A stretch of 31,638 nt of DNA from a virus: the IMG/VR virus record IMGVR_UViG_3300042879_001323, positions 1 to 31,638 of that record; one strand, written 5' to 3'. Made by a program: the position numbers and the translations under genes. The notes beneath the pieces were generated by a model, which saw nothing but the letters and a program-made list of their open reading frames with translations, had not been told where the DNA came from and did not search any database. How positions within the stretch are numbered: position 1 is the stretch's first letter; each line of letters opens with the position of its first letter. Shown here piece after piece: positions 1 through 28,987 of the stretch.

Positions 1-1038
1 ATATTCGCAGGTGGATTCGCTTTAGGCGTTAAAAAACATTTTGATATTTTAGCACACTTTGAAATGAAACCTGGAGTTTATAAAAAAACTTTTCAAGCTA
101 ATTTTCCAGATGTGGAATATTATGAAGGAGAAGAAAATTGGCCTAAAGATAAATTTAAAAATAAAGTAGATTTTGTTTATTGTAATCCTCCATGTGCTCC
201 TTGGTCTAATTTAGGATCAACTCAAAAAGGTGCGATGGCTTGGAAAGATGACCCTAGAATAGCTTGTTGGAGAAATGCTTTTAGTTTATTAAAAGACTTA
301 AAACCTAAAGCTATTGTACTTGAATCAGTTCCTAGAGTTTATAGTAAGAATGGTGGGTATGAAATGATTCAACAATTAACTAAAGAAGCTAATGACTTAG
401 GTTATTATACAACTCATTTATTAATTGACGGTGGTTATACAGGATTAAATCATAGTCGTAAAAGATTTTTCTTTATAGCAACTAAATATCATTTAAGTAT
501 TAAACCATTAAACTTTTCTCCATTACCAACAACTGGAGAAGTTCTTAAAAATTTTAAACTAGAACATAAAAAAGATATAGGACACTTAATGAAGTTAGGA
601 AAAAGTGAAATTCCTTATTTAAAATATTGTAAACAAGGAGAGAGTTTAAGAGTAACGTGGGAAAGATATAATCCTCCAGAAACTTGGAAACGTGGAGGAA
701 TGAGAAATGGAGTTAAGGGTAGACCTCAATTTATGAAATGGAGATTAAAAAGTGACGAACATATACCAGTTATAGCTGGAGGTTTTTATATACATCCAAC
801 TGAAGATAGATTATTTGGACATAAAGAATTAGCTTATATGGCTGGTTATCCTCATGATTATATATGGGAAGGACCAGCTTCTACGATAGGTTCACAAATT
901 GCGAGAAGTGTTATGCCACCTGTAGCGGAATATGTAGCAAGGATAATTAAAAATAGTATAGAAGATAAAAAAGAAAATAAAGAAATACATCAAGTGGTTG
1001 ATTTTAGAAAACCGCCTGAACAAGAAAGATTATTATGA
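1..1038 (+). CDS. C5-cytosine DNA methyltransferase homologue (5' end outside window)
   Basis: The frame is open from base 1, and the residues before the first ATG (64) read IFAGGFALGVKKHF, which matches motif I of C5 methyltransferases, so the gene starts upstream and the ATG at 64 is internal. The catalytic PPC motif (NPPCAPWSNLG) is near visible residue 62-72. A variant motif VI, ESVPR instead of ENV, is near 108. A motif VIII-like SRKRFFFIA is near 152, and the C-terminal GSQIARSVMPPVAEYVA resembles motifs IX/X (normally GNAVPP). The family transfers methyl from S-adenosylmethionine to C5 of cytosine in DNA. The intact Cys argues for activity; the altered ENV and GNAV motifs argue for divergence. 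It overlaps the next gene by 4 bp and heads a nucleotide-modification block. Confidence 0.85.
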   Translation: MFAGGFALGVKKHFDILAHFEMKPGVYKKTFQANFPDVEYYEGEENWPKDKFKNKVDFVYCNPPCAPWSNLGSTQKGAMAWKDDPRIACWRNAFSLLKDLKPKAIVLESVPRVYSKNGGYEMIQQLTKEANDLGYYTTHLLIDGGYTGLNHSRKRFFFIATKYHLSIKPLNFSPLPTTGEVLKNFKLEHKKDIGHLMKLGKSEIPYLKYCKQGESLRVTWERYNPPETWKRGGMRNGVKGRPQFMKWRLKSDEHIPVIAGGFYIHPTEDRLFGHKELAYMAGYPHDYIWEGPASTIGSQIARSVMPPVAEYVARIIKNSIEDKKENKEIHQVVDFRKPPEQERLL

Positions 1039-1454
1039 CAGATATATTAAAAGACATAGATAATTTTCATAAAAAATATGGCTTTGAAAAAAATGAAAAA
1101 GTTGATATACCTAATAATAGTGAACTTATTAATTTTAGAACTGCTTTTTTAATGGAAGAATTAGCTGAATATACTAATGCTATAACTAAAAAAGATGCAG
1201 CTGGAGCTTTAGATGCTTTAGTTGACATAGTTTATATAGCTTTAGGAACAGCTTGGTTATTTAACTTACCATTTGAAAAAGCATGGAACGAAGTTCAAAA
1301 AGCTAATATGAGTAAGATTAGGGCTAAAGATAAAACAGGAAAACGTGGAACTAAATTTGATGTTATAAAACCTAAAGACTGGAAAGCTCCTAATATAGAA
1401 AAAATTATAGAAGAAGAAAGAGAAATAAATGAAAATTTTAGTAACAGGATTTAA
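1035..1454 (+). CDS. MazG/PRA-PH-type nucleotide pyrophosphohydrolase
   Basis: This 139-residue protein has the all-alpha NTP pyrophosphatase signature: an EELAEY motif near residue 41 and a DALVDIVY motif near 60-67, the acidic EExxE...ExxD pattern that binds metal in MazG and phosphoribosyl-ATP pyrophosphohydrolase relatives. Such enzymes split a (d)NTP to NMP and pyrophosphate. T4 gp56, the dCTPase/dUTPase that removes unmodified dCTP, has an all-alpha fold of this kind, and the neighbours here (cytosine methyltransferase homologue, dCMP hydroxymethylase-like enzyme) make a dCTPase role attractive. Substrate cannot be read from sequence; ppGpp or dUTP remain possible. It overlaps the genes on both sides. 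Confidence 0.8.
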   Translation: MTDILKDIDNFHKKYGFEKNEKVDIPNNSELINFRTAFLMEELAEYTNAITKKDAAGALDALVDIVYIALGTAWLFNLPFEKAWNEVQKANMSKIRAKDKTGKRGTKFDVIKPKDWKAPNIEKIIEEEREINENFSNRI

Positions 1455-2454
1455 TGCATTATCAATTGGAACTGCTCGTAGTCCATTAAACATTGCAACT
1501 TCTGCCAGAATACTTCCTACTGTCCTAAAAGAATTAGGACACGATGTAACTCATAAAGCAATTATCCCGGGAGAAGATGTGTCAATGTATGATAAAGTAT
1601 TCGTATTTGTATTTGGTCCTAATAGTTTATCAGCAAGATATTGGTACGGTGCAGCTTACACTATAATTAAAAGACCCGATGCTATTATTTCAATAGATGA
1701 TTGGCAAACTAAAGATTCAGTTCAAGGATTTGGAACGTTTAGTAGAGGACATTGGAGAATATGGAAGAAAGTAAGTCAAGCTGGAAATCCAGTTGGTAAA
1801 GTTTATTGGGACGAAGCACAACCTTATAAAAAAGAAATAGAAGATTTAGTTGATACATTTGCATTTGAAAAATGGCCACATACTTTATTAGTACCTGCTT
1901 ATGATGGTGGTAATTATGACGAATTAGGAATGAAAGCAAATAAAATTATTAATTGGGATCCTACTCCTTATACAGATACTTATTTAAATCATACTGACAA
2001 TGATACTTTATTTTCAAAAGAAAATAGTGAAAGAGAAAAAGCATGGATACTTGCAAGTTTAGTAAGTAAAAATAGCTGGTTTACTAAACAAGTATTTAAT
2101 TGGAATGTTAAAAGATTTGGAAATGTAAAAGAAAAACAAGTACGTTTAAAAGAACATGAGTTATTTGAAGAATATAAAAAAGTATGGGGAATGATTAGTC
2201 CTCCACATTATCACACTATGAGAGGAAGTGGTTGGTGGAGAGTAAGATATAAAATAGCAAACGATGCGGGTAATATTATATATGCACATCCAGAAGAAGC
2301 TAAAATTTTAGGATTAAATATTGATTTAAAGATTATAGAAAACGGTAGTAATGATGAATTAAAAGAATTAATAAGTAGCCAATCTTATATATTAAGTAAA
2401 AAGTTTTGGACGAAAGAAAGGACTAAAGAATTTTTTAAATGCTTGCTAGGATAA
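1429..2454 (+). CDS. GT-B-like glycosyltransferase, possible DNA (hydroxymethylcytosine) glycosyltransferase
   Basis: I recognise this by layout rather than a strong motif. The N-terminus (MKILVTGFNALS...) looks like the first Rossmann strand and helix of a GT-B enzyme. A YDKVFVFVFGPNSLSARYW stretch (54-72) and an acidic ISIDDW (87-92) occupy places comparable to the first domain of T4 beta-glucosyltransferase, whose catalytic Asp100 follows a similar strand. The C-terminal part has GSGWWRVRY (266-274) followed by a strand and helices, comparable to the donor-binding half. At 341 residues it is close to the 351 of T4 BGT. It sits between the MazG-like and kinase genes, overlapping both, beside the dCMP hydroxymethylase-like gene. 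Another acceptor (lipid, protein) cannot be excluded, and the family call needs a structure comparison. Confidence 0.5.
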   Translation: MKILVTGFNALSIGTARSPLNIATSARILPTVLKELGHDVTHKAIIPGEDVSMYDKVFVFVFGPNSLSARYWYGAAYTIIKRPDAIISIDDWQTKDSVQGFGTFSRGHWRIWKKVSQAGNPVGKVYWDEAQPYKKEIEDLVDTFAFEKWPHTLLVPAYDGGNYDELGMKANKIINWDPTPYTDTYLNHTDNDTLFSKENSEREKAWILASLVSKNSWFTKQVFNWNVKRFGNVKEKQVRLKEHELFEEYKKVWGMISPPHYHTMRGSGWWRVRYKIANDAGNIIYAHPEEAKILGLNIDLKIIENGSNDELKELISSQSYILSKKFWTKERTKEFFKCLLG

Positions 2455-3014
2455 TAATATTAGAAGGACCTGATGGAGTTGGAAAAACTACATTAGCTAA
2501 AAAATTTAAGGAGTTATATCCTGATTCTTATTATATTCATTTAAGAGTACACAATAATATGAAATTGTGGCATACAGCAGCTGCAAGACTTGCAGTTAAA
2601 ATGAAAGAAAAAGGTAAATTAGTTATTATAGATAGACATTGGCCATCTGAACAATGCTATTCTTATATTTATAGAGATGGACCTTCTTATGATGCATATA
2701 ATATTTGGAGATATTTAAATCGTGAAGGAGCTATTTACGTTTGGTGTATACCTGATGATATTAAAAAAGTAAAAGAAAATCATAATATAAATAAAAAAAT
2801 TAGACATGAAGAATATAATGATATTGACAAAGTTATTGATATGTATTTAAATTGTTGGGAAGATAAACATCCTAAAGAAAATAGTTTTTTATCTTTATTA
2901 TGTCCTTTAAAAAATCGTAAAGATTTTGTTCGTTACGATATGTTTAAAGAAGGTCATGACTTAAATAGAGTTGTAGAAAAAATAGAAGAAGCAGCTTTTG
3001 TAAATAATATATGA
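2439..3014 (+). CDS. Deoxynucleoside monophosphate kinase (thymidylate kinase-like)
   Basis: This 191-residue P-loop kinase has the Walker A motif GPDGVGKTT at residues 10-18 and a second conserved DR motif (IIDRHWPSE, Asp65-Arg66), as in thymidylate and phage dNMP kinases. Enzymes of this group move phosphate from ATP to a dNMP. Placement directly before a dCMP hydroxymethylase-like gene suggests that it may phosphorylate a modified dCMP, as gene 1 kinase does in T4, but substrate specificity is inference. The ATG at 2439 overlaps the end of the glycosyltransferase by 16 bp, and the stop overlaps the next ATG by 4 bp, so translation is probably coupled. Confidence 0.82.
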   Translation: MLARIIILEGPDGVGKTTLAKKFKELYPDSYYIHLRVHNNMKLWHTAAARLAVKMKEKGKLVIIDRHWPSEQCYSYIYRDGPSYDAYNIWRYLNREGAIYVWCIPDDIKKVKENHNINKKIRHEEYNDIDKVIDMYLNCWEDKHPKENSFLSLLCPLKNRKDFVRYDMFKEGHDLNRVVEKIEEAAFVNNI

Positions 3015-3844
3015 ATCAATTAGATCAAGAATATAAAAATTTTATAGTTGAAATTATAAGAGGACCTGATTACGAATGTGCTCCTCGTCAATTAAAAATA
3101 TATGAAAAATTAAATCATACATTTGAAGTAAATATGGATTTACCAATAATGACGATTAGAGAAAGAAATTTAAATTATCGTTTTATGTTTGGTGAAGCAG
3201 CATGGATATTAGATGGTAGAAATGATCTTTCAACTATTTCTAAATATATGAAAAATATTAAAAGATTTAGTGATGACGGTGTAACTTTCTTTGGAGCATA
3301 TGGTCCTAAGATAATAACTCAAATAAGCTATATTGTAGATACACTTAAAAAAGATAGAGATTCAAGACAAGCTGTACTTACTATATGGAGAGAGAATCCT
3401 AGATCAAGTAAAGATATTCCTTGTACTGTAGCTATGCAATTTTTTTTAAGACCTAGAGGAGATCAATTATATTTACATTGTATTACTACAATGAGAAGTA
3501 ATGACTTATGGTTAGGTCTTCCTTACGATAGTTTTAATTTTAGTGCAATTAGTTTTGTGATTGCTTGTTATTTAAATAATTTAGGAATTGAATGTAAACT
3601 AGGAAGATTATATATAAATGCTGGAAGTCGTCATTTATACGAAACTAATTTAAAAGATGCTCATCTTATAAGAGCAGCACTTCAAAATTATGAATGTGAT
3701 TTTTCTTTTAATGATTTAATTGAAAAATATAAATTAAATCCAATGAGAATAGTGGAAACTTTATATCAAGCTGCCGATATTACTATCGGTAAAGAAGATG
3801 GACTTACACTTCCTGATAAGTTACAAATAATTAAAAATGGATAA
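3011..3844 (+). CDS. dCMP hydroxymethylase-like enzyme of the thymidylate synthase fold
   Basis: The thymidylate synthase core is clear: SRQ (118-120), catalytic Cys138 in IPCT, MRSNDLWLGLP (161-171), and a C-terminal HLY (208-210) in place of the usual HxY. The diagnostic position is Asp173 in LGLPYD. Thymidylate synthases that use dUMP have Asn here (LGLPFN); T4 dCMP hydroxymethylase has Asp, which selects the cytosine ring. PCT instead of PCH also fits the hydroxymethylase side. Predicted reaction: dCMP plus methylene-tetrahydrofolate to 5-hydroxymethyl-dCMP; a phage dCMP C5-methylase of the same fold is the main alternative. It lies between a dNMP kinase and a dCMP deaminase. At 277 residues it is near the family's usual size. 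Confidence 0.8.
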   Translation: MNQLDQEYKNFIVEIIRGPDYECAPRQLKIYEKLNHTFEVNMDLPIMTIRERNLNYRFMFGEAAWILDGRNDLSTISKYMKNIKRFSDDGVTFFGAYGPKIITQISYIVDTLKKDRDSRQAVLTIWRENPRSSKDIPCTVAMQFFLRPRGDQLYLHCITTMRSNDLWLGLPYDSFNFSAISFVIACYLNNLGIECKLGRLYINAGSRHLYETNLKDAHLIRAALQNYECDFSFNDLIEKYKLNPMRIVETLYQAADITIGKEDGLTLPDKLQIIKNG

Positions 3845-4319
3845 TTATAGAATTCCAAAAGATTGGTATTTTTTAAAAATGGCCAATCTAGTTTCTGAAA
3901 GAGGAACGTGTGCGAGAAGAAAAGTAGGTTGTGTTTTAATAAACGAAAGAGGACATGTTTTAGCAACAGGCTATAATGGAGGACCTGCTCATACTGAACA
4001 TTGTATAGATATACCTTGTCCTGGTGCTAATTTAAAATCAGGCGAAGGTTTAGATATTTGTAAAGCTATTCACGCTGAACAAAATGCGTTACTTCAATGT
4101 AGAAATGTATATGAAATTAAATTTGTATATACAACTCTTAGTCCTTGTATTCATTGCGTTAAACTTCTATTAAATACTTCAGCAGAGGGAATAATAACTT
4201 TTGAAAAATATGTTGACTTTGATACAGTTGGAAAATTTTGGATGGATAATGGCGGAAAATCTTGGACATATATTAACAAAGAAATTATATTAGGAAAATG
4301 TTCAAGTTCTCTGAATTAG
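3837..4319 (+). CDS. Deoxycytidylate (dCMP) deaminase
   Basis: Zinc-dependent cytidine/deoxycytidylate deaminase family. HAE (79-81) supplies one zinc ligand and the catalytic Glu; PCIHC (103-107, Cys104 and Cys107) supplies the other two. The N-terminal part, with CARRKVGCVLI and ATGYNGGP, is typical of dCMP deaminases, including phage ones. The reaction converts dCMP to dUMP, feeding thymidylate synthesis. No conventional thymidylate synthase is visible here, so that enzyme is either the host's, a ThyX elsewhere in the phage, or unnecessary. The gene overlaps its neighbours by 8 bp upstream and 22 bp downstream. At 160 residues it is full length. Confidence 0.92.
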   Translation: MDNYRIPKDWYFLKMANLVSERGTCARRKVGCVLINERGHVLATGYNGGPAHTEHCIDIPCPGANLKSGEGLDICKAIHAEQNALLQCRNVYEIKFVYTTLSPCIHCVKLLLNTSAEGIITFEKYVDFDTVGKFWMDNGGKSWTYINKEIILGKCSSSLN

Positions 4320-6139
4320 AAAAATCAAGTATCATAGCAATTGATACAGAAACACATGATCCTAATCTTAAATCTTTAGGACCAGGTGGTTTTAGAAAAG
4401 ATGGTAAATTAGTAGGTATATCTATAGCCACGGATAGTGGTTATAATGAATATTTTCCAATAGGACACGAAGGCGGTGGAAATCTTAATAATGATCAAGT
4501 TGTTGATTTTATTGATAAATTGCTTAAATTAAATAAAAAGCTTGTATTTGCTAATGCTTTATATGACATGGAATGGCTAAATTCACACGATTCAAGACTG
4601 GCCTTTACTAAGTACCATTCTATATACGATATAATGGCTATAGAGCATTTATTAGACGAAAACAAGCTAAAATACTCACTTGAATCTTTAAGTCAATACT
4701 ATTTAAAAAAATCTAAATATGAAGCTGAATTACAACAAGCTATACAATTTAACTTTGGTAAGAAAGCTAAAGTTAAAGATAATTTATGGAAGTTACATGC
4801 CAATAGTGTAAGAGAATATGCTAAAGAAGATGCTTTACTTACACTTCAAATATTTCAAAAACAATTACCTAGAATTAAGACTGAAGATGTAGAAAGTATA
4901 GTTAATATTGAAATGAGATTAATACCGTGTCTATTTGAAATAAGAAAACGTGGGGTAAGAATTGATCTTAAAAAAGCTGAACAACTTTATAATCAATTAG
5001 AAAAAAAACAATTCGTGCTTCAAGATCAGCTAAATAGATCAGGAGGACATGACGTAAATGTTTGGGCTAATGCGTCATTAAAAGAAGCATATGATAAAAA
5101 TAAAATTAAATATAATTTTACGGAAAAAGGAACTGCATCTTTCACTCAAGATTGGCTTGAGCAGCAAAATGATGGAATATCTAAAACAATTTTAGATATT
5201 AGAAAGTTGGATAAAATTAGAAATACTTTTATAAAGAATATGATACTAGAAAAAGCAGTTGGTGGTCGTATTCATTGTCAATTTAATTCTATGGGAACTG
5301 TTACAGGTAGATTTAGCTCTAGTAATCCTAATCTACAGCAAGTACCTGCAAGAGACCCTGAACTTGGACCGTTGATCAGAAGTTTGTTTATTCCAGAAGA
5401 AAGTCAAGATTGGTATTGTGCTGATTACTCTCAACAAGAACCTAGAGTGTTAGTACATTACGCTGTAATTAAAAATATGGAATCAGCGAAGAAAATACAA
5501 GAAGAATTTATTAATAATAATGATACAGATTTTCATGAAATGGTTGCTAAAATGGCTAGTATAGAAAGAAAACAAGCTAAGACTATTAATTTAGGATTAT
5601 TCTATGGAATGGGTAATAAGAAATTAGCAAGAGAATTGGGACTAGATGATGATTCAGCTTATGAATTATTTAATAAATATCATAGTAGAGTACCTTTTGT
5701 AAAAGAATTATCTAAACAAGTAGCACATGTTGCAAGTACAAGAGGATATATTAAAACTTTATTAGGACGTAAAAGAAGATTTGATAAATGGGAACCTAAA
5801 GATAGTTTTCAAAGTATGGCTTATTCTAAAATAGAAGCTATGGAAAGATATCCTGATACTGAATTAAAAAGAGCTTATACTCATACAGCTTTAAATGCTT
5901 TAATACAAGGTTCATCTGCCGATATTACTAAAGCAGCAATGCTTAAAATATATGAATCAGGTCTTATGAGTGAAATAGATATTAAATTAACAATACACGA
6001 TGAACTTGATTTTTCCGTTGATAAATCAAAACAAAAATGTTTTGAAGAAGCTATACAGATAATGAAAAACTGTGTAGATATTAAAGTGCCTCTTAAAATA
6101 GATATTGAGAAAGGAGATAGTTGGGGCACTGCTAAATAA
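4298..6139 (+). CDS. polA: Family A DNA polymerase with 3'-5' exonuclease, Leu at the 762-equivalent site
   Basis: This 613-residue replicative polymerase has a DnaQ-like proofreading domain (Exo I DTETH 16-20; Exo II FANALYD 84-90; Exo III YAKED 174-178). The polymerase domain follows: motif A DYSQQEPR (376-383), motif B RKQAKTINLGLFYG (424-437) and motif C HDE (567-569). All catalytic carboxylates are present. There is no 5'-3' exonuclease domain, as is usual in phage PolA. The residue equivalent to E. coli Phe762 is Leu432 (N-L-G), a variant that viral ecologists have linked to slower or temperate-type replication. No helicase or primase is in the window. It overlaps the deaminase by 22 bp, and its stop abuts the next ATG. 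Confidence 0.95.
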   Translation: MFKFSELEKSSIIAIDTETHDPNLKSLGPGGFRKDGKLVGISIATDSGYNEYFPIGHEGGGNLNNDQVVDFIDKLLKLNKKLVFANALYDMEWLNSHDSRLAFTKYHSIYDIMAIEHLLDENKLKYSLESLSQYYLKKSKYEAELQQAIQFNFGKKAKVKDNLWKLHANSVREYAKEDALLTLQIFQKQLPRIKTEDVESIVNIEMRLIPCLFEIRKRGVRIDLKKAEQLYNQLEKKQFVLQDQLNRSGGHDVNVWANASLKEAYDKNKIKYNFTEKGTASFTQDWLEQQNDGISKTILDIRKLDKIRNTFIKNMILEKAVGGRIHCQFNSMGTVTGRFSSSNPNLQQVPARDPELGPLIRSLFIPEESQDWYCADYSQQEPRVLVHYAVIKNMESAKKIQEEFINNNDTDFHEMVAKMASIERKQAKTINLGLFYGMGNKKLARELGLDDDSAYELFNKYHSRVPFVKELSKQVAHVASTRGYIKTLLGRKRRFDKWEPKDSFQSMAYSKIEAMERYPDTELKRAYTHTALNALIQGSSADITKAAMLKIYESGLMSEIDIKLTIHDELDFSVDKSKQKCFEEAIQIMKNCVDIKVPLKIDIEKGDSWGTAK

Positions 6140-7401
6140 TGAACATAGGATTTTTAGGATTAGGAAAACTAGGATTACCAGTAGCTCTTGCAATAGAAAA
6201 TAAAGGACATAAAGTTTGTGGAACTGATATTAGTCCAATTACATTAAAAGGAATAAGAACAAAAACCCTCAATTATAGAGAAGAAGGTGCACAAGAACTA
6301 CTAAATAAATCTAATATTCAAATAAAAAATATAAGCGATATGGTCAAAGATTGTGATATAATCTTTGTCCCAATTCAAACTCCTCATGAAGAAAAGTACG
6401 AAGGTATTACAAGAATACCTAAAGAAAGAGCTGATTTTAATTACGAACATTTAAGAAATGGATTAAGAAACCTAGCTTTAGAAGCAATGGTTCATAGAAA
6501 AGAAATTGTAGTTATTATAATTTCAACAGTTCTCCCAGGTACAATTCGTAGAGAGATAATGCCTGTGCTAAATAATTATATTAAACTTTGTTACAATCCA
6601 TTTTTTATAGCAATGGGTACTACTATTAATGATTTTTTAAATAGTGAAATTATATTATTTGGAGTTGAAGATGAAGAAGCTGCTAAAAAAGCTGAAGAAT
6701 TTTATAAAACTATAAATAACAGTCCTTTCTTTAAAACAACATTAGAAAATGCTGAATTAATAAAAGTAGTTTATAATACTTTTATTTCAACTAAAATTTC
6801 TATGATTAATACTGTAATGGAAACATGTCATTATCTTCCTAATACAAATATAGATGAAGTATCTAAAGCTCTATCACTTTGTACAACTAGAATTATAAGT
6901 AATAAATATTTACAAGGTGGAATGGGAGATGGTGGTGGTTGTCATCCTAGAGATAATATAGCTCTATCATATCTTGCTAATAAATTGAATTTATCATTTA
7001 ATTGGTACGATATGATTATGAAACAACGTGAACATCAAACAGATTGGCTTGTTGATTTAATTATGAAAAATAGAAATGATTTAGATATAAATGTATTAGG
7101 TAAATCTTTTAAACCCGAAACTAATTTAACTTTAGGAAGTCCTTCAATACTTCTTAAAAATCTTATAGAAGAAAGAGGACCTATTGTTAATATTTGGGAT
7201 CCTTATGTAGATGGTAAAGTTGAAGAACATGTAAAACGTTATGAGTGGAATAATAAACCTCAATTATTTTTTATTGGAACTAAACACGATGCTTTTCATC
7301 ATTTTTATTTTTATCCAGGTTCTATAGTCATTGATCCATTTAGGTATTTAAAAGTTAAAGACGATGTTAAATATATACCAATAGGAATATGCAACCAATA
7401 G
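6139..7401 (+). CDS. UDP-glucose/GDP-mannose dehydrogenase family protein, divergent active site
   Basis: The N-terminal NAD-binding GxGxxG is GLGKLG (7-12). IFVPIQTP (75-82) and STVLPGT (129-135) follow, then the ELIKVVYN helix with Lys209 and Asn213. The catalytic Cys268 lies in GGGCHPRD (265-272), and GKSFKPET marks the C-terminal domain. Family members oxidise a UDP-hexose twice with two NAD+ to the uronic acid. The usual NPEFLxEG motif is NPFFIAMG here (153-160), so both active-site glutamates are missing while Cys, Lys, Asn and Asp remain. Chemistry or substrate may therefore differ. It starts at the polymerase stop and overlaps the NAD synthetase gene by 13 bp, which suggests linked function. 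Confidence 0.85.
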   Translation: MNIGFLGLGKLGLPVALAIENKGHKVCGTDISPITLKGIRTKTLNYREEGAQELLNKSNIQIKNISDMVKDCDIIFVPIQTPHEEKYEGITRIPKERADFNYEHLRNGLRNLALEAMVHRKEIVVIIISTVLPGTIRREIMPVLNNYIKLCYNPFFIAMGTTINDFLNSEIILFGVEDEEAAKKAEEFYKTINNSPFFKTTLENAELIKVVYNTFISTKISMINTVMETCHYLPNTNIDEVSKALSLCTTRIISNKYLQGGMGDGGGCHPRDNIALSYLANKLNLSFNWYDMIMKQREHQTDWLVDLIMKNRNDLDINVLGKSFKPETNLTLGSPSILLKNLIEERGPIVNIWDPYVDGKVEEHVKRYEWNNKPQLFFIGTKHDAFHHFYFYPGSIVIDPFRYLKVKDDVKYIPIGICNQ

Positions 7402-8159
7402 ATAGAATAGAAAATATAAAAAATTGGATTTTTAATTATGTAACTGAAATGCCTAATCCAGCTAATTGTTTAGTTGTAGGTATATCAGGAGGAATTGATT
7501 CATCTGTAGTAAGTACAATATCAGCAATGACTGGACTTAAAACTTTAGTTGTGTGTATGCCAATACATCAAAGACCAGAACAACATGATTTATCTATTGC
7601 TCATAAAAATTGGCTTACTAATAAATTTAAAAATGCATACGGGGTTGATGTTGATTTAACTTATGTATTTAATGCTTTTGAAAATAGTTTAACTGATTTA
7701 AAATTTACATCTCAATTAGGTCTAGCTAATTCAAGAGCCAGATTAAGAATGATGTGTTTATATCAAATAGCAGCTTCATGTAATGGAATAGTGGTAGGAA
7801 CTGGAAATAAAGTAGAAGATTTTGGTGTAGGATTCTTTACTAAATATGGAGATGGTGGAGTTGATATATCTCCAATTGGTGATTGTTTAAAAACAGATGT
7901 ATGGAAAATGGGTAAAGAATTAAAAATATTAGATGAAATAATTATGGCAGATCCAACAGATGGATTATGGTCAGATGGTAGAACAGATGTTGATCAATTA
8001 GGAATGAGTTATAAAGAATTAGAAATAGCTATGCAAGATCCTTCTGATAAAAACTACACTAAATATTTAGAACTTAGAATTAAGAATTTACATAAGATGA
8101 AGTCAATCCCTGTATGTAAATTTGATGGAAAAACTACTTTGGAAACAAATAAGAAATAA
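7389..8159 (+). CDS. nadE: NAD synthetase (ammonia-type)
   Basis: PP-loop ATP pyrophosphatase with SGGIDSS at residues 33-39, NSRARLRM (114-121, matching the NxxARxRM signature) and GFFTKYGDGGVDISPIGD (148-165). A PTDGLWSDGRTD segment resembles the P-loop 2 region of NadE. The enzyme adenylates and amidates nicotinic acid adenine dinucleotide to make NAD+. The N-terminal glutaminase domain of longer NadE proteins is absent, so free ammonia is the expected donor. Coupling to the upstream dehydrogenase (13 bp overlap) could mean cofactor supply. NAD+ restoration against host NAD-depleting defences is an alternative. The last 38 bp overlap the nuclease gene. Confidence 0.9.
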   Translation: MQPIDRIENIKNWIFNYVTEMPNPANCLVVGISGGIDSSVVSTISAMTGLKTLVVCMPIHQRPEQHDLSIAHKNWLTNKFKNAYGVDVDLTYVFNAFENSLTDLKFTSQLGLANSRARLRMMCLYQIAASCNGIVVGTGNKVEDFGVGFFTKYGDGGVDISPIGDCLKTDVWKMGKELKILDEIIMADPTDGLWSDGRTDVDQLGMSYKELEIAMQDPSDKNYTKYLELRIKNLHKMKSIPVCKFDGKTTLETNKK

Positions 8160-8514
8160 ATTAAATAATTTTTTTATTCAACGTATTGAAACGCAAATAG
8201 AACGTGGAATCCCTGACGTTCATTATTGTGTTAACGGTGTATCAGGTTGGATTGAGGGTAAATATCTTAAAACACCTAAAAGAGATAATACAAAAGTTAA
8301 ATTAAAAATAACTGTTGAACAATTAGCTTGGCATAGAGCTTATAGTATATATGGTGGTAAAGTTTTTATTTTAGTTAAAAAAGATAGAGAAGTTTATTTA
8401 TTTGCTGGTAAAGATGGAAATGATTTAGCAATAGGATTATCTAAAGAAGAATTTGAAAAACGTGCACTTGCGAAAGATTGGAACACAATAAAGATAATAT
8501 TGTCGCAAAAATAA
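8122..8514 (+). CDS. VRR-NUC-like nuclease of the PD-(D/E)xK superfamily
   Basis: A 130-residue protein with the core pattern GIPDV (29-33) then GWIEGKY (43-48), giving Asp32, Glu45 and Lys47 as the PD...ExK triad, followed by a helix with AWHRAY where VRR-NUC proteins have their conserved Q.xxx.hx element. Such small phage nucleases act as structure-specific endonucleases or junction resolvases. The ATG at 8122 lies inside nadE in another frame; an adjacent ATG at 8125 is an equal candidate. No substrate can be assigned. It closes the dense replication/nucleotide operon, and is followed by the first real intergenic gap. Confidence 0.7.
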   Translation: MMEKLLWKQIRNKLNNFFIQRIETQIERGIPDVHYCVNGVSGWIEGKYLKTPKRDNTKVKLKITVEQLAWHRAYSIYGGKVFILVKKDREVYLFAGKDGNDLAIGLSKEEFEKRALAKDWNTIKIILSQK

Positions 8515-12693: not shown

Positions 12694-12867
12694 ATGAATT
12701 ACGAATATAAATGGGTACACGAATATAATATAAAAAAATTTAAAAATAAAATTATACCACTAAAAGCTATTCCGTTTATGTGTAATCATATGCCTGTAGT
12801 TCATAAAGGTAAATATAAAGGTTGTATAGGAATAGTAGGTCTAATTCTTTGTATAGTTAAAAAATGA
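12694..12867 (+). CDS. Hypothetical basic protein, 57 aa, hydrophobic C-terminus
   Basis: Basic N-terminal part (YNIKKFKNKIIPLKAI), then CNHMPVVHKGKYKGC, and a C-terminal hydrophobic stretch (IGIVGLILCIV) before two lysines, as in a tail-anchored peptide. It ends in ATGA overlap with the next gene. No clear ribosome binding site; moderate support only. Confidence 0.42.
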   Translation: MNYEYKWVHEYNIKKFKNKIIPLKAIPFMCNHMPVVHKGKYKGCIGIVGLILCIVKK

Positions 12868-13397
12868 ATATCTTTTATTTAGACGAAAATCCTAAGAAAT
12901 GCGCAGAGTATCATTGCGATAAACACGTAGTTAAGATGATTATCGAATATGCGCAATTACTCTCTACAGCCCACCGGCTTTGTGATGGAATAGAGAGCCG
13001 TGGATCAAGCAAGTCGGGTAAGAGACAAGTAAGAGTATGGAAGCTTGACGATTCACGTGAAAATAGCCTGTATTTAGCGAGTCATATCAATCACCCAAGT
13101 AATATATGGACACGCTCTAGTGTAGAGAATTATCAATGGTTATGGCAGTTATGGTATAATCTATGTAAAGAGTACGAAGAAAGATATAGCAAAACTCATG
13201 CGTCATGGATCAAATTAGCTACTCATTTATCTATTCCACCTCATAATATTCCAGAGATAAGAGCAACTCCTATACCACTTTGTATGCCTGACGAATATAA
13301 GCACAAAAATCCAATTACAGCTTATAAGACTTTTTACATTAAAGAAAAAATTAAGTTCGCAACGTGGAAAAACGGCGTTCCTCATTGGTTTAAATAG
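12864..13397 (+). CDS. Conserved phage protein of unknown function, 177 aa
   Basis: The sequence has a conserved look I associate with an unnamed phage family seen in marine genomes: MNIFYLDENPKKCAEYHCDKHVVKMI.EYAQ at the start, then SRENSLYLASHINHPSNIWTRSS, and a C-terminal YKHKNPITAYKTFYI..K..FATWK. The His/Cys/Asp cluster near residues 13-20 and the recurring Trp/His residues hint at an enzyme or nucleic-acid binder. No catalytic signature that I can name. It has a somewhat higher G+C than nearby genes. Confidence 0.65.
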   Translation: MNIFYLDENPKKCAEYHCDKHVVKMIIEYAQLLSTAHRLCDGIESRGSSKSGKRQVRVWKLDDSRENSLYLASHINHPSNIWTRSSVENYQWLWQLWYNLCKEYEERYSKTHASWIKLATHLSIPPHNIPEIRATPIPLCMPDEYKHKNPITAYKTFYIKEKIKFATWKNGVPHWFK

Positions 13398-20914: not shown

Positions 20915-21769
20915 ATGATCAACATTACAATATTACTTCCTACACGCAAGCGAGTAGAAACTTTAAAAAAATCGATAGAGTCATTAATTAAAACTTCTAA
21001 ACACCCCGATAAGCTACAATTTCTATTTGCTGTAGACGATGATGATATTGATACTATAAATTTTTTAAAGTCAACATCGTATCCTAATCAAGGCGTACTT
21101 ACTTTTAAACCTATGGGATATGAGAACATTCATAAATATAATAATACTTTAGCTCTTTATGCTCATGGTAAATGGTTAATGTTCTTTAACGATGATGCGA
21201 TAATGACTACTCAAAATTGGGATACTAAAATAATGGACCGTGGATCCAATTTTCGTGTGTTACGTGTAAGAGAACAAACATCACATCCTTATGCGATATT
21301 TCCAATCTTTCCTAGAGATTGGTTTATGCTCCTAGATCATATTAGTCTACATGGTCAAAATGATGCGTGGATCAGCGAGATAGCTTATAGTTTAGATATT
21401 ATGAGAGATATAGATATAGATATAATACACGATAGAGCTGACATTACTGGTAATAATAATGATGAAACTTTTAAAGCAAGAAAATATAACGAGGGAAATC
21501 CTAACGACCCTAATGATCTTCATAGTGAACGTATGCAAAATTTAAAAATAAAAGATATACAAAAAATAGCATGGTACCTAGGAAAAATAGGTCAAAAATC
21601 AGAAGCATGGGAATTAGTATTAGCTAAAAAAAGAGATCCCTTTATAAAATTAAAAGAATTGTTTAATATATATAATCAAAAAGGTGCGATAGGAGCAGGA
21701 CAACAAAATGCTAGAACAGACAGTAAAACAGAAGTTGAACGAAGCAATCACACTTTATCAGAAAACTAA
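20915..21769 (+). CDS. GT2-like (GT-A fold) glycosyltransferase
   Basis: Nucleotide-sugar transferase pattern: ITILLPTRKRVETLKKSIESL (4-24), FLFAVDDDD (37-44), ANG-type donor site replaced by NNTLALYAHGKW (76-87), and MFFNDDAIMTTQNWD (89-103) with a DxD-like Asp93-Asp94. The C-terminal 60 residues are polar. It transfers a sugar from a nucleotide donor; acceptor unknown: DNA base, virion protein or host surface. It overlaps the large terminase by 62 bp, an unusual partner. It could act on hydroxymethylcytosine together with the enzyme at 1429, but nothing here proves it. Confidence 0.75.
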   Translation: MINITILLPTRKRVETLKKSIESLIKTSKHPDKLQFLFAVDDDDIDTINFLKSTSYPNQGVLTFKPMGYENIHKYNNTLALYAHGKWLMFFNDDAIMTTQNWDTKIMDRGSNFRVLRVREQTSHPYAIFPIFPRDWFMLLDHISLHGQNDAWISEIAYSLDIMRDIDIDIIHDRADITGNNNDETFKARKYNEGNPNDPNDLHSERMQNLKIKDIQKIAWYLGKIGQKSEAWELVLAKKRDPFIKLKELFNIYNQKGAIGAGQQNARTDSKTEVERSNHTLSEN

Positions 21770-24791: not shown

Positions 24792-25169
24792 ATGTTTTTA
24801 ATTGATACTTACTTGGATAAAAGTAAAATAGAAGGTGTAGGAGTTTTTTCAAAAGAGAATGTAAAGAAAGGTGAAAAAATAAAAGAAGTAAGACCTGAAT
24901 TTGAAATAGAATTTGATAAAGAAAATTTACCTAGAATGCCTTTAGCTCTTGCAAGACTTATTGATAACTATGCTTATGAAAGAGAAAAAGGATCTAAAAT
25001 TGTAGTTTTAGGAATTGATCACGAAAAATATATAAATCATAGTGATGAGCCAAGTGTTAATGATGATGGAATTGCTTTAAAAGATATAAATATAGGAGAT
25101 GAAATTACAATAGACTACAGAGATTTTGATGATAGTATTGATAAATGGTTTATTCCAAATCAAAAATAA
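24792..25169 (+). CDS. SET-domain protein (putative lysine methyltransferase)
   Basis: The 125-residue protein has the SET core: EGVGVFSKENVKKGEKI (14-30), YINHSDEPSVN (80-90, matching the NHSCxPN motif), and IGDEITIDY (101-109, the pseudoknot GEEITxDY). Such enzymes use S-adenosylmethionine to methylate lysine in proteins. The canonical NHSC cysteine is Asp here, and no post-SET cysteines follow, as in many bacterial and phage SET proteins. It sits between small Lys/Arg-rich protein genes, which are obvious possible substrates. It has no ribosome binding site of note. Confidence 0.8.
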   Translation: MFLIDTYLDKSKIEGVGVFSKENVKKGEKIKEVRPEFEIEFDKENLPRMPLALARLIDNYAYEREKGSKIVVLGIDHEKYINHSDEPSVNDDGIALKDINIGDEITIDYRDFDDSIDKWFIPNQK

Positions 25170-28472: not shown

Positions 28473-28629
28473 AGAAGAATTAGGTAATAATTTGTTGTCA
28501 AAAGGTGTAGATAACATAGAGGAGTTTAAACGAAACTATGGCTACGGTCAAGGTTTAGATAAATCTCTACAAATTATTAATGAGATAATTGAAAAATATA
28601 AAAAAGGAGAAATAGAAGATGATGAGTAA
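28426..28629 (+). CDS. Hypothetical helical protein, 67 aa
   Basis: Starts inside the previous gene in another frame. MEKLLQAIKNQIKKHKEELG... then YGQGLDKSLQIINEIIEKYKKG: two charged helices, ending acidic. Unrecognised. It overlaps the GroES-like gene by 11 bp. Confidence 0.5.
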   Translation: MEKLLQAIKNQIKKHKEELGNNLLSKGVDNIEEFKRNYGYGQGLDKSLQIINEIIEKYKKGEIEDDE

Positions 28630-28987
28630 TGAAGCATGGGCTACAGAAGATGACGTACCTACACCTACAAAAGTTCCACAACCAGTTGGATATAGAATTT
28701 TAATAAGACCAAAAGGACCTGTATCTAAAACAAAAGGTGGTATTTATTTACCAGATAAAAATAAAGATACACAAGCTTATTTAAATAGTGTAGGTCAAGT
28801 AATAGCAATGGGACCTGAATGTTATAGTGATAGAAAAGCACCTTGGTGTAAAGTAGGAGATTGGGTTTTATTTGGTCGTTATGCAGGTGCACGCATATCT
28901 GTACAAAATGTCAAAATGGTGATAGTAAATGATGATGAGATCATTGCTTCACTCGAAAGTTCTGAAGTAGTATCTCAGCAAATATAA
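28619..28987 (+). CDS. GroES-like co-chaperonin
   Basis: The 122-residue protein has the Cpn10 core: GYRILIRPKGP (24-34), KTKGGIYLPD (37-46, the mobile-loop site that docks on GroEL), VGQVIAMGPECY (58-69), and KVGDWVLFGRYAGARI (78-93). AAAAAGGAG is 12 nt upstream. Phage GroES homologues (T4 gp31 type) help the host GroEL fold the major capsid protein; placing next to the scaffold and capsid genes fits. The roughly 20-residue N-terminal extension is not part of the fold. Confidence 0.85.
   Translation: MMSNEAWATEDDVPTPTKVPQPVGYRILIRPKGPVSKTKGGIYLPDKNKDTQAYLNSVGQVIAMGPECYSDRKAPWCKVGDWVLFGRYAGARISVQNVKMVIVNDDEIIASLESSEVVSQQI

Follow-up and report, generated by a model that had tools for sequence, protein, structure and literature searches.

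A probable cytosine-hypermodification operon with a T4 beta-glucosyltransferase-like enzyme and candidate sugar-donor genes in an uncultivated virus related to Pelagibacter phages

Pentoses on the cytosines of phage DNA have precedents in RB69 (PMC6024577) and in Shewanella phage Thanatos (PMC12838424), and in relatives of RB69 a member of the thymidylate synthase (TS) family makes 5-hydroxy-dCMP, with arabinose linked directly (PMC13390438). In T4 it is hydroxymethylcytosine (hmC) that is glucosylated. In the literature searched, which consisted mostly of papers available without subscription, Bacillus phage SP-15 is the sole relevant report of a UDP-glucose 6-dehydrogenase (UGDH) or an NAD synthetase in connection with phage DNA, and no description of phage DNA carrying galactofuranose was found. 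Here we describe a 31,638-base viral fragment (IMG/VR record IMGVR_UViG_3300042879_001323, positions 1 to 31,638; hereafter the window), which begins with an operon that probably directs a T4-like hypermodification of cytosine, possibly with a sugar donor derived from UDP-glucuronate.

Positions 1-8514 contain ten genes in a single overlapping run on the + strand and are considered one operon, encoding in order a C5-cytosine methyltransferase (C5-MTase), a MazG-type pyrophosphatase, a glycosyltransferase (GT) of the GT-B type, a deoxynucleoside monophosphate (dNMP) kinase, a TS homologue, a dCMP deaminase, a family A DNA polymerase (PolA), UGDH, the NAD synthetase NadE and a nuclease. Neighboring genes among the first nine overlap by 1-26 bases, and the VRR-nuclease-like tenth gene overlaps NadE by 38 bases. 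The first nine genes (1-8159) had been listed in a preliminary description, and all are as placed there, on the + strand and with their family calls confirmed by profile searches. The same gene order recurs in 26 viral contigs recovered by scanning with the GT encoded at 1429 (GT identity 52-100%), so the arrangement is not due to chance. The records of these relatives are, like the window, fragments; UGDH and NadE are both present in every contig of the window's clade that reaches past PolA, and the stretch from the 52% relative ends earlier. Every operon gene is under purifying selection, with nonsynonymous to synonymous rate ratios (dN/dS) of 0.04-0.23 against three close relatives; against more distant relatives dS approaches saturation and less can be learned from the ratios.

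The TS homologue (3011-3844; PF00303, 3e-19) is of the dCMP 5-hydroxymethylase type, and its closest solved structure is the CMP 5-hydroxymethylase MilA (2.4e-18, versus 4.5e-9 for thymidylate synthases). The residue that selects dUMP in thymidylate synthase, Asn177, is replaced by Asp (D173 in the window) in all 30 of the 30 TS-family partners of the GT, the window included, and also in T4 gp42. The catalytic Cys (C138) and the equivalents of Glu58, Asp169 and Tyr209 (E62, D165 and Y210) are retained, and Trp80 is replaced by F86. Asp169 of thymidylate synthase contacts folate; given that its equivalent is kept, methylene-tetrahydrofolate should be the cofactor, and together with the replacement of Trp80 this leads us to expect hydroxymethylation. 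The predicted activity is thus that of a T4 gp42-type dCMP 5-hydroxymethylase. The earlier proposal of a cytosine, rather than thymine, hypermodification block is upheld by D173, the MilA match and the gp42-like residues, and, as far as sequence can probe substrate preference, the residues are those expected for dCMP and not dUMP.

The precedents raise an alternative, in which the TS homologue yields 5-methyl-dCMP or 5-hydroxy-dCMP and any sugar is attached otherwise, as in the direct ethers of RB69 and Thanatos. TS-family members of RB69 relatives make 5-hydroxy-dCMP and the sugar is linked without the CH2 group, the Thanatos pentose is likewise directly linked (PMC13390438, PMC12838424), and a Gualtarvirus member of the window's GT family accompanies an RB69-type TS. 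However, at the Glu58, Asp169 and Tyr209 sites the window enzyme has E, D and Y, as does T4 gp42, whereas RB69 ORF048c and Morganella phage Rgz1 have F, N and F, and a methylase product would give the GT no hydroxyl acceptor. This alternative is consequently quite improbable, and identity of the 3011 product as a 5-hydroxy-dCMP synthase was rejected because the E58F/D169N/Y209F signature is not present. The signature itself is common to the RB69 and Rgz1 TS homologues (loci L028, 12087-12788, and L147, 7498-8214, the latter RB69 ORF048c) and may be a marker of 5-hydroxy-dCMP synthases; it was defined in this analysis and, to our knowledge, has not been published as a rule.

The GT (1429-2454) belongs to PHROG_14998 (2e-24), a family listed as of unknown function, and sequence searches gave no Pfam, NCBIfam or PDB match. 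An AlphaFold2 (AF2) model built from 46 sequences, with relatives collected by iterated search, is of high quality (predicted local distance score, pLDDT, 90.6; predicted TM-score, pTM, 0.88), and T4 beta-glucosyltransferase (BGT) occupies ranks 1-3 of a Foldseek search of the PDB (1bgt, 1qkj and 1nzd; E 3.7e-6, 2.3e-5 and 5.7e-5, probability 1.00), with T4 alpha-glucosyltransferase ranking below it. The GT-B likeness anticipated from the sequence is thus borne out by structure comparison, and the model suggests a two-domain GT-B enzyme that is closest in the PDB to T4 BGT and is predicted to be a DNA glycosyltransferase. A weak profile alignment with BGT (E 0.007 for one pair) places D91 on Asp100 and R273 on Arg269; both residues are invariant across the family alignment and are candidate counterparts of the catalytic Asp100 and the UDP-contacting Arg269. 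A scan of 84,980 bacterial and archaeal genomes, which rested on one short pattern, revealed only four GT loci, on three contigs of metagenome-assembled genomes (MAGs), each beside TS and/or UDP-galactopyranose mutase (UGM), so the family looks essentially viral, in contrast to cell-surface transferases. The 186 kb contig NVXB01000001.1, labelled a Hyphomicrobiales MAG, carries GT-UGM stretches close to its two ends that are identical (L230, L231); an assembly overlap could account for this, or the contig may be a phage genome that is redundant at its ends.

These features bear on a further alternative, that there is no hypermodification and the block reflects general nucleotide metabolism plus a 5-methylcytosine methylase for evading defences, the 1429 protein glycosylating some other target. 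Phages do commonly carry genes for dCMP deaminase, MazG, kinase and TS-family proteins, and 907 records match the TS homologue, but the Asp at the TS specificity site in 30 of 30 partners argues otherwise, as does a GT that is most like T4 BGT, nearly confined to viruses and associated with TS or a TET dioxygenase. We regard this explanation as highly improbable.

The gene company of the GT was counted in 50 GT-bearing virus records; as these are fragments, absences are soft. TS is present in 38 of the 50 and a TET/JBP dioxygenase in seven, none of which has TS (0/7), which points to two alternative routes to hmC. No Tet_JBP dioxygenase was found in the window's clade among these records, and the TET/JBP route was rejected for it. 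UGM is present in 12 of the 50, including all seven with TET/JBP, where the usual order is TET, a GalE-like epimerase, GT and UGM. Aeromonas phage 50AhydR13PP and Erwinia phage FBB1 have UGM-GT, C48C1 has TET-GT-UGM, and DSL-LC01 has TS, deaminase and PolA together with GT-UGM and MazG. In Gualtarvirus Rgz1 the GT lies between an arabinose-5-phosphate isomerase and a nucleotidyltransferase, and PSTRCR_121 is laid out alike. A sister clade with about 51% GT identity is without UGDH and has a UDP-glucuronate decarboxylase (UXS) in the same operon (7.5e-90 to human UXS1, TSEVYG motif present), and the GT tree groups this UXS clade with the UGDH clade as its sister (SH-aLRT 99). A more distant relative, L110, has the GT plus both UGDH and UXS (8.2e-93 to human UXS1). 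As such, members of the PHROG_14998 family adjoin exchangeable donor genes, namely UGM, UXS, arabinose-5-phosphate isomerase and UGDH. The extra epimerase of L017, which is without the TSEVYG motif and best matches GalE-like proteins, was not counted as UXS, nor were the like-sized epimerases of G013 and G022. The UXS clade also has a class I S-adenosylmethionine-dependent methyltransferase (Methyltransf_23; L091, 5908-6576, and relatives, cluster c23) between the helicase and the C5-MTase, which could methylate the sugar.

In the window the candidate donor gene is UGDH, paired with NadE. The dehydrogenase (6139-7401) is UGDH-like (TIGR03026 7.8e-58, 196 bits against a cut-off of 190; PDB UGDH 2.1e-27), with three domains, of which the C-terminal UDP-binding domain scores slightly below the Pfam cut-off, and it retains the active-site Cys, Lys, Asn and Asp. 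Its pair partner (7389-8159) is a homologue of the NH3-dependent NAD+ synthetase NadE (TIGR00552, 161 bits against a cut-off of 64; PDB NadE 3.4e-33) that keeps the SGG.DS loop, NxxARxRM and GFFTKYGDGG motifs and has a one-residue insertion, GTGNKxED; the subfamily with this insertion is common in viral contigs (at least 541 relatives). Among 62 NadE relatives outside the lineage, 43 have no UGDH inside 5 kb flanks, and a role for NadE as an obligate helper for DNA sugars was rejected as a general rule on this ground; NadE may supply NAD or have a separate function, and its part in the DNA sugar would be that of a helper at most. Its usual upstream neighbor outside the lineage has no Pfam match.

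Several observations weigh against a sugar made by UGDH on this DNA, and some of them against sugar addition itself. The UGDH clade has NP[FY]FIAMGT in place of NPEFLxEG and has lost both conserved Glu residues (18 loci), which we take to be E161 and E165 of the human enzyme; one Glu of this motif is assigned a role in the second step of catalysis by human UGDH, so the product is possibly other than plain UDP-glucuronate. The UGDHs of HTVC008M and Bellamy carry NPYLIAxG. The window, itself a fragment, contains no UXS when searched throughout with PF01370. A C5-MTase is an odd companion if the cytosine C5 position is fully occupied, and the BGT likeness is at the level of fold (TM 0.51-0.58), the sequence-profile match being weak. 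Moreover, the TET and donor labels go with the GT clades, and the counts therefore reflect few independent events.

The UGDH-NadE pair also occurs in HTVC008M, Bellamy (with one gene between) and Sf-FS3, all without any TS, and adjacently in a 642 kb phage whose strongly scoring TS gene sits far away; in these genomes it lies beside glycosyl-, carbamoyl- or methyltransferases. At the loci of 19 of the 62 outside NadE relatives UGDH lies within 80 bases of NadE, with no TS match and no 1429-type GT. A second glycosyltransferase of the GT-A type (GT2-like; 20915-21769, + strand, overlapping TerL; PHROG_14945 1.2e-10, PF00535 0.0025, below cut-off) could consume the UGDH-derived UDP-sugar instead. 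Its only relative in a named phage is in the UGDH-NadE cluster of HTVC008M (3.6e-14), and it is present in all four related records of the window's clade that cover the site and absent from all three of the UXS clade, thus appearing and disappearing together with UGDH-NadE. These patterns favor an explanation in which the 1429 enzyme glycosylates hmC with host UDP-glucose or UDP-galactose, and UGDH and NadE work with the GT-A enzyme in a distinct phage glycan pathway serving a virion protein, the host surface or a second sugar, their place beside the polymerase being coincidental. Set against this, in all relatives examined UGDH lies inside the nucleotide operon, overlapping PolA or immediately after it; in the sister clade, where UGDH is missing, that operon includes UXS; L110 joins GT, UGDH and UXS; and elsewhere the GT adjoins donor genes. 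We therefore treat a separate glycan pathway as a serious possibility, though on the doubtful side.

The suggestion in the preliminary description that UGDH and NadE serve an oxidized DNA sugar accordingly fares less well than the rest. It gains from the UXS in the sister operon and from the UGDH plus UXS of L110, but is no more than plausible, given UGDH-NadE in phages without an hmC pathway (HTVC008M, Bellamy, Sf-FS3), the competing GT-A enzyme and the loss of the UGDH Glu. Should UGDH be linked to the DNA sugar at all, a pentose and a uronic acid are equally likely. A UGDH that lacks the usual Glu and has as its partner a homologue of NadE, a carboxylate-amidating enzyme, makes glucuronamide conceivable, and the canonical-looking NadE motifs leave uronate amidation by NadE as a sub-case of low probability.

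The preferred reading is that of DNA glycosylation, with steps drawn from protein families, residues, fold and context. A MazG-type enzyme would remove dCTP, the TS homologue would add a hydroxymethyl group to dCMP using methylene-tetrahydrofolate, the 2439 kinase and host enzymes would convert the product to hydroxymethyl-dCTP (hm-dCTP), and the phage PolA would incorporate this into DNA, where the GT-B enzyme would put a sugar onto the hydroxymethyl group of hmC. The donor would most likely be a nucleoside diphosphate sugar from UDP-glucuronate, either UDP-glucuronate unchanged or, after decarboxylation by a host or phage enzyme, UDP-xylose. Judged from the sequence, the DNA of this phage very likely contains hmC bearing a sugar. 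The chance that this sugar derives from the UGDH product falls a little short of even, and an oxidized sugar on the DNA is only plausible; our overall description of the block as a T4-like operon with a UDP-glucuronate-derived donor, which we consider probable, is a compromise between the hmC-sugar and UGDH-donor claims. Tentatively, we propose the fuller scheme that hmC carries a UDP-glucuronate-derived sugar (xylose, glucuronate or possibly glucuronamide) and that PHROG_14998 GTs work with exchangeable donor modules for galactofuranose, xylose, arabinose or the UGDH product. Glucuronamide on hmC, taken alone, is very unlikely.

The remaining operon genes fit around this core. The C5-MTase homologue (1-1038; PF00145 5.9e-31) keeps the PPC motif and has ESV in place of ENV; its first seven codons lie beyond the window edge, and the near-identical L002 starts MKALGAY. 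PF00145 is found in 34 of the 50 GT-bearing records. In L057 (9129-10182) the gene is broken by one TGA and one TAA stop, and may be dispensable there, or the sequence faulty. The MazG-type NTP pyrophosphatase (1035-1454; PRA-PH 2.3e-12; PHROG_671 4.6e-29; weak match to DR2231 MazG-like structures) would have a dCTPase role like that of T4 gp56. The dNMP kinase (2439-3014) has a thymidylate kinase/YorR fold (PHROG_761, thymidylate kinase, 2.7e-15; YorR profile 2.7e-12), its AF2 model (pLDDT 90.1) matches YorR and dTMP kinases in Foldseek, and it presumably phosphorylates hm-dCMP; T4 gp1 is absent among the Foldseek matches listed and was rejected as a specific relative. The dCMP deaminase (3837-4319; PF00383 3.1e-19; PHROG_174 2.7e-31) precedes PolA (4298-6139; PF00476 8.8e-74), which has a 3'-5' exonuclease and anchors the insertion. 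The VRR-type nuclease homologue that ends the run (8122-8514; PHROG_2165 5.6e-27) directly follows PolA in the UXS clade, and is probably a backbone rather than a pathway gene.

The window's PolA and TerL are closest to those of Pelagibacter phages HTVC027P and HTVC023P, together with 023Pt_psg01 and DSL-LC04 (58-62 kb genomes), with PolA identities of 40-44%. Inspection of 023Pt_psg01, HTVC027P and DSL-LC04 shows the helicase, at most a few small genes and then PolA, with no modification genes at that site; in 023Pt_psg01 and HTVC027P the gene after PolA is PurM. In the window the genes from C5-MTase to deaminase (MTase-MazG-GT-kinase-TS-deaminase) lie between helicase and PolA, and UGDH-NadE lies after PolA; the two additions thus flank the polymerase on a shared backbone. 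From the PolA and TerL resemblance we would guess at a SAR11-like bacterium as the host. Elsewhere the window encodes a small SET-domain protein (24792-25169; PF00856 1.6e-8), unusual for a phage, a GroES-like co-chaperonin between portal and head genes (28619-28987; PF00166 1.4e-15), and a protein with a weak match to pyrimidine dimer DNA glycosylase (12864-13397; PF03013 2.1e-4, just under cut-off; PHROG_624 8e-53).

The GT family, listed as unknown, has members among aquatic and actinobacterial phages as well as T4-like ones, and the analysis offers a testable function for it. Unusual sugars on the DNA of these phages, galactofuranose and xylose among them, are predicted gene by gene, and the donor genes allow the predictions to be checked on isolated phages such as Aeromonas phage 50AhydR13PP and Erwinia phage FBB1, with no need to culture the virus of the window. 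If it is correct, the new base would shield the DNA against restriction and CRISPR, and a viral DNA-glycosyltransferase family with exchangeable donor genes would be the wider finding.

Among known systems, the operon resembles T4 hmC glucosylation in its dCMP hydroxymethylase residues, NTP pyrophosphatase, dNMP kinase, dCMP deaminase and a GT-B enzyme closest to BGT, but has a MazG-type enzyme rather than gp56, a kinase of thymidylate kinase/YorR fold, PolA rather than PolB, a C5-MTase and the added UGDH-NadE, and its GT shares the BGT fold with almost no sequence likeness. With the arabinosyl-cytosine system of RB69 and other Mosigvirus members it shares the cytosine target and phage sugar-donor genes (PMC6024577, PMC13390438), and the Gualtarvirus GT of its family is encoded within a donor cluster resembling that of RB69; RB69 differs in using 5-hydroxy-dC, made by the E58F/D169N/Y209F variant, whereas the window TS is of the T4 type and its donor genes are unlike. 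Thanatos likewise has a cytosine pentose, a phage UDP-xylose enzyme, dCMP deaminase, dCTP pyrophosphatase and a TS homologue (PMC12838424), although there a pyrophosphorylase activates xylose, the linkage is direct and other genes are used. In SP-15 a phage UGDH goes with glucuronate on the DNA (PMC5977210), but the base is thymine-derived, the UGDH has the canonical motif NPEFLAEG and the transferases differ. The HTVC008M cluster shares the UGDH-NadE pair and a GT-A relative; it differs in having carbamoyl- and methyltransferases, no TS in the genome and no GT-B relative in the stretch searched. Finally, the TET/JBP-GalE-GT-UGM cassettes (L105, L129, L131 and L136, and C48C1 without an adjacent GalE) combine the same GT family with an hmC-making enzyme, but there the dioxygenase makes hmC in the polymer and the predicted donor is that of galactofuranose.

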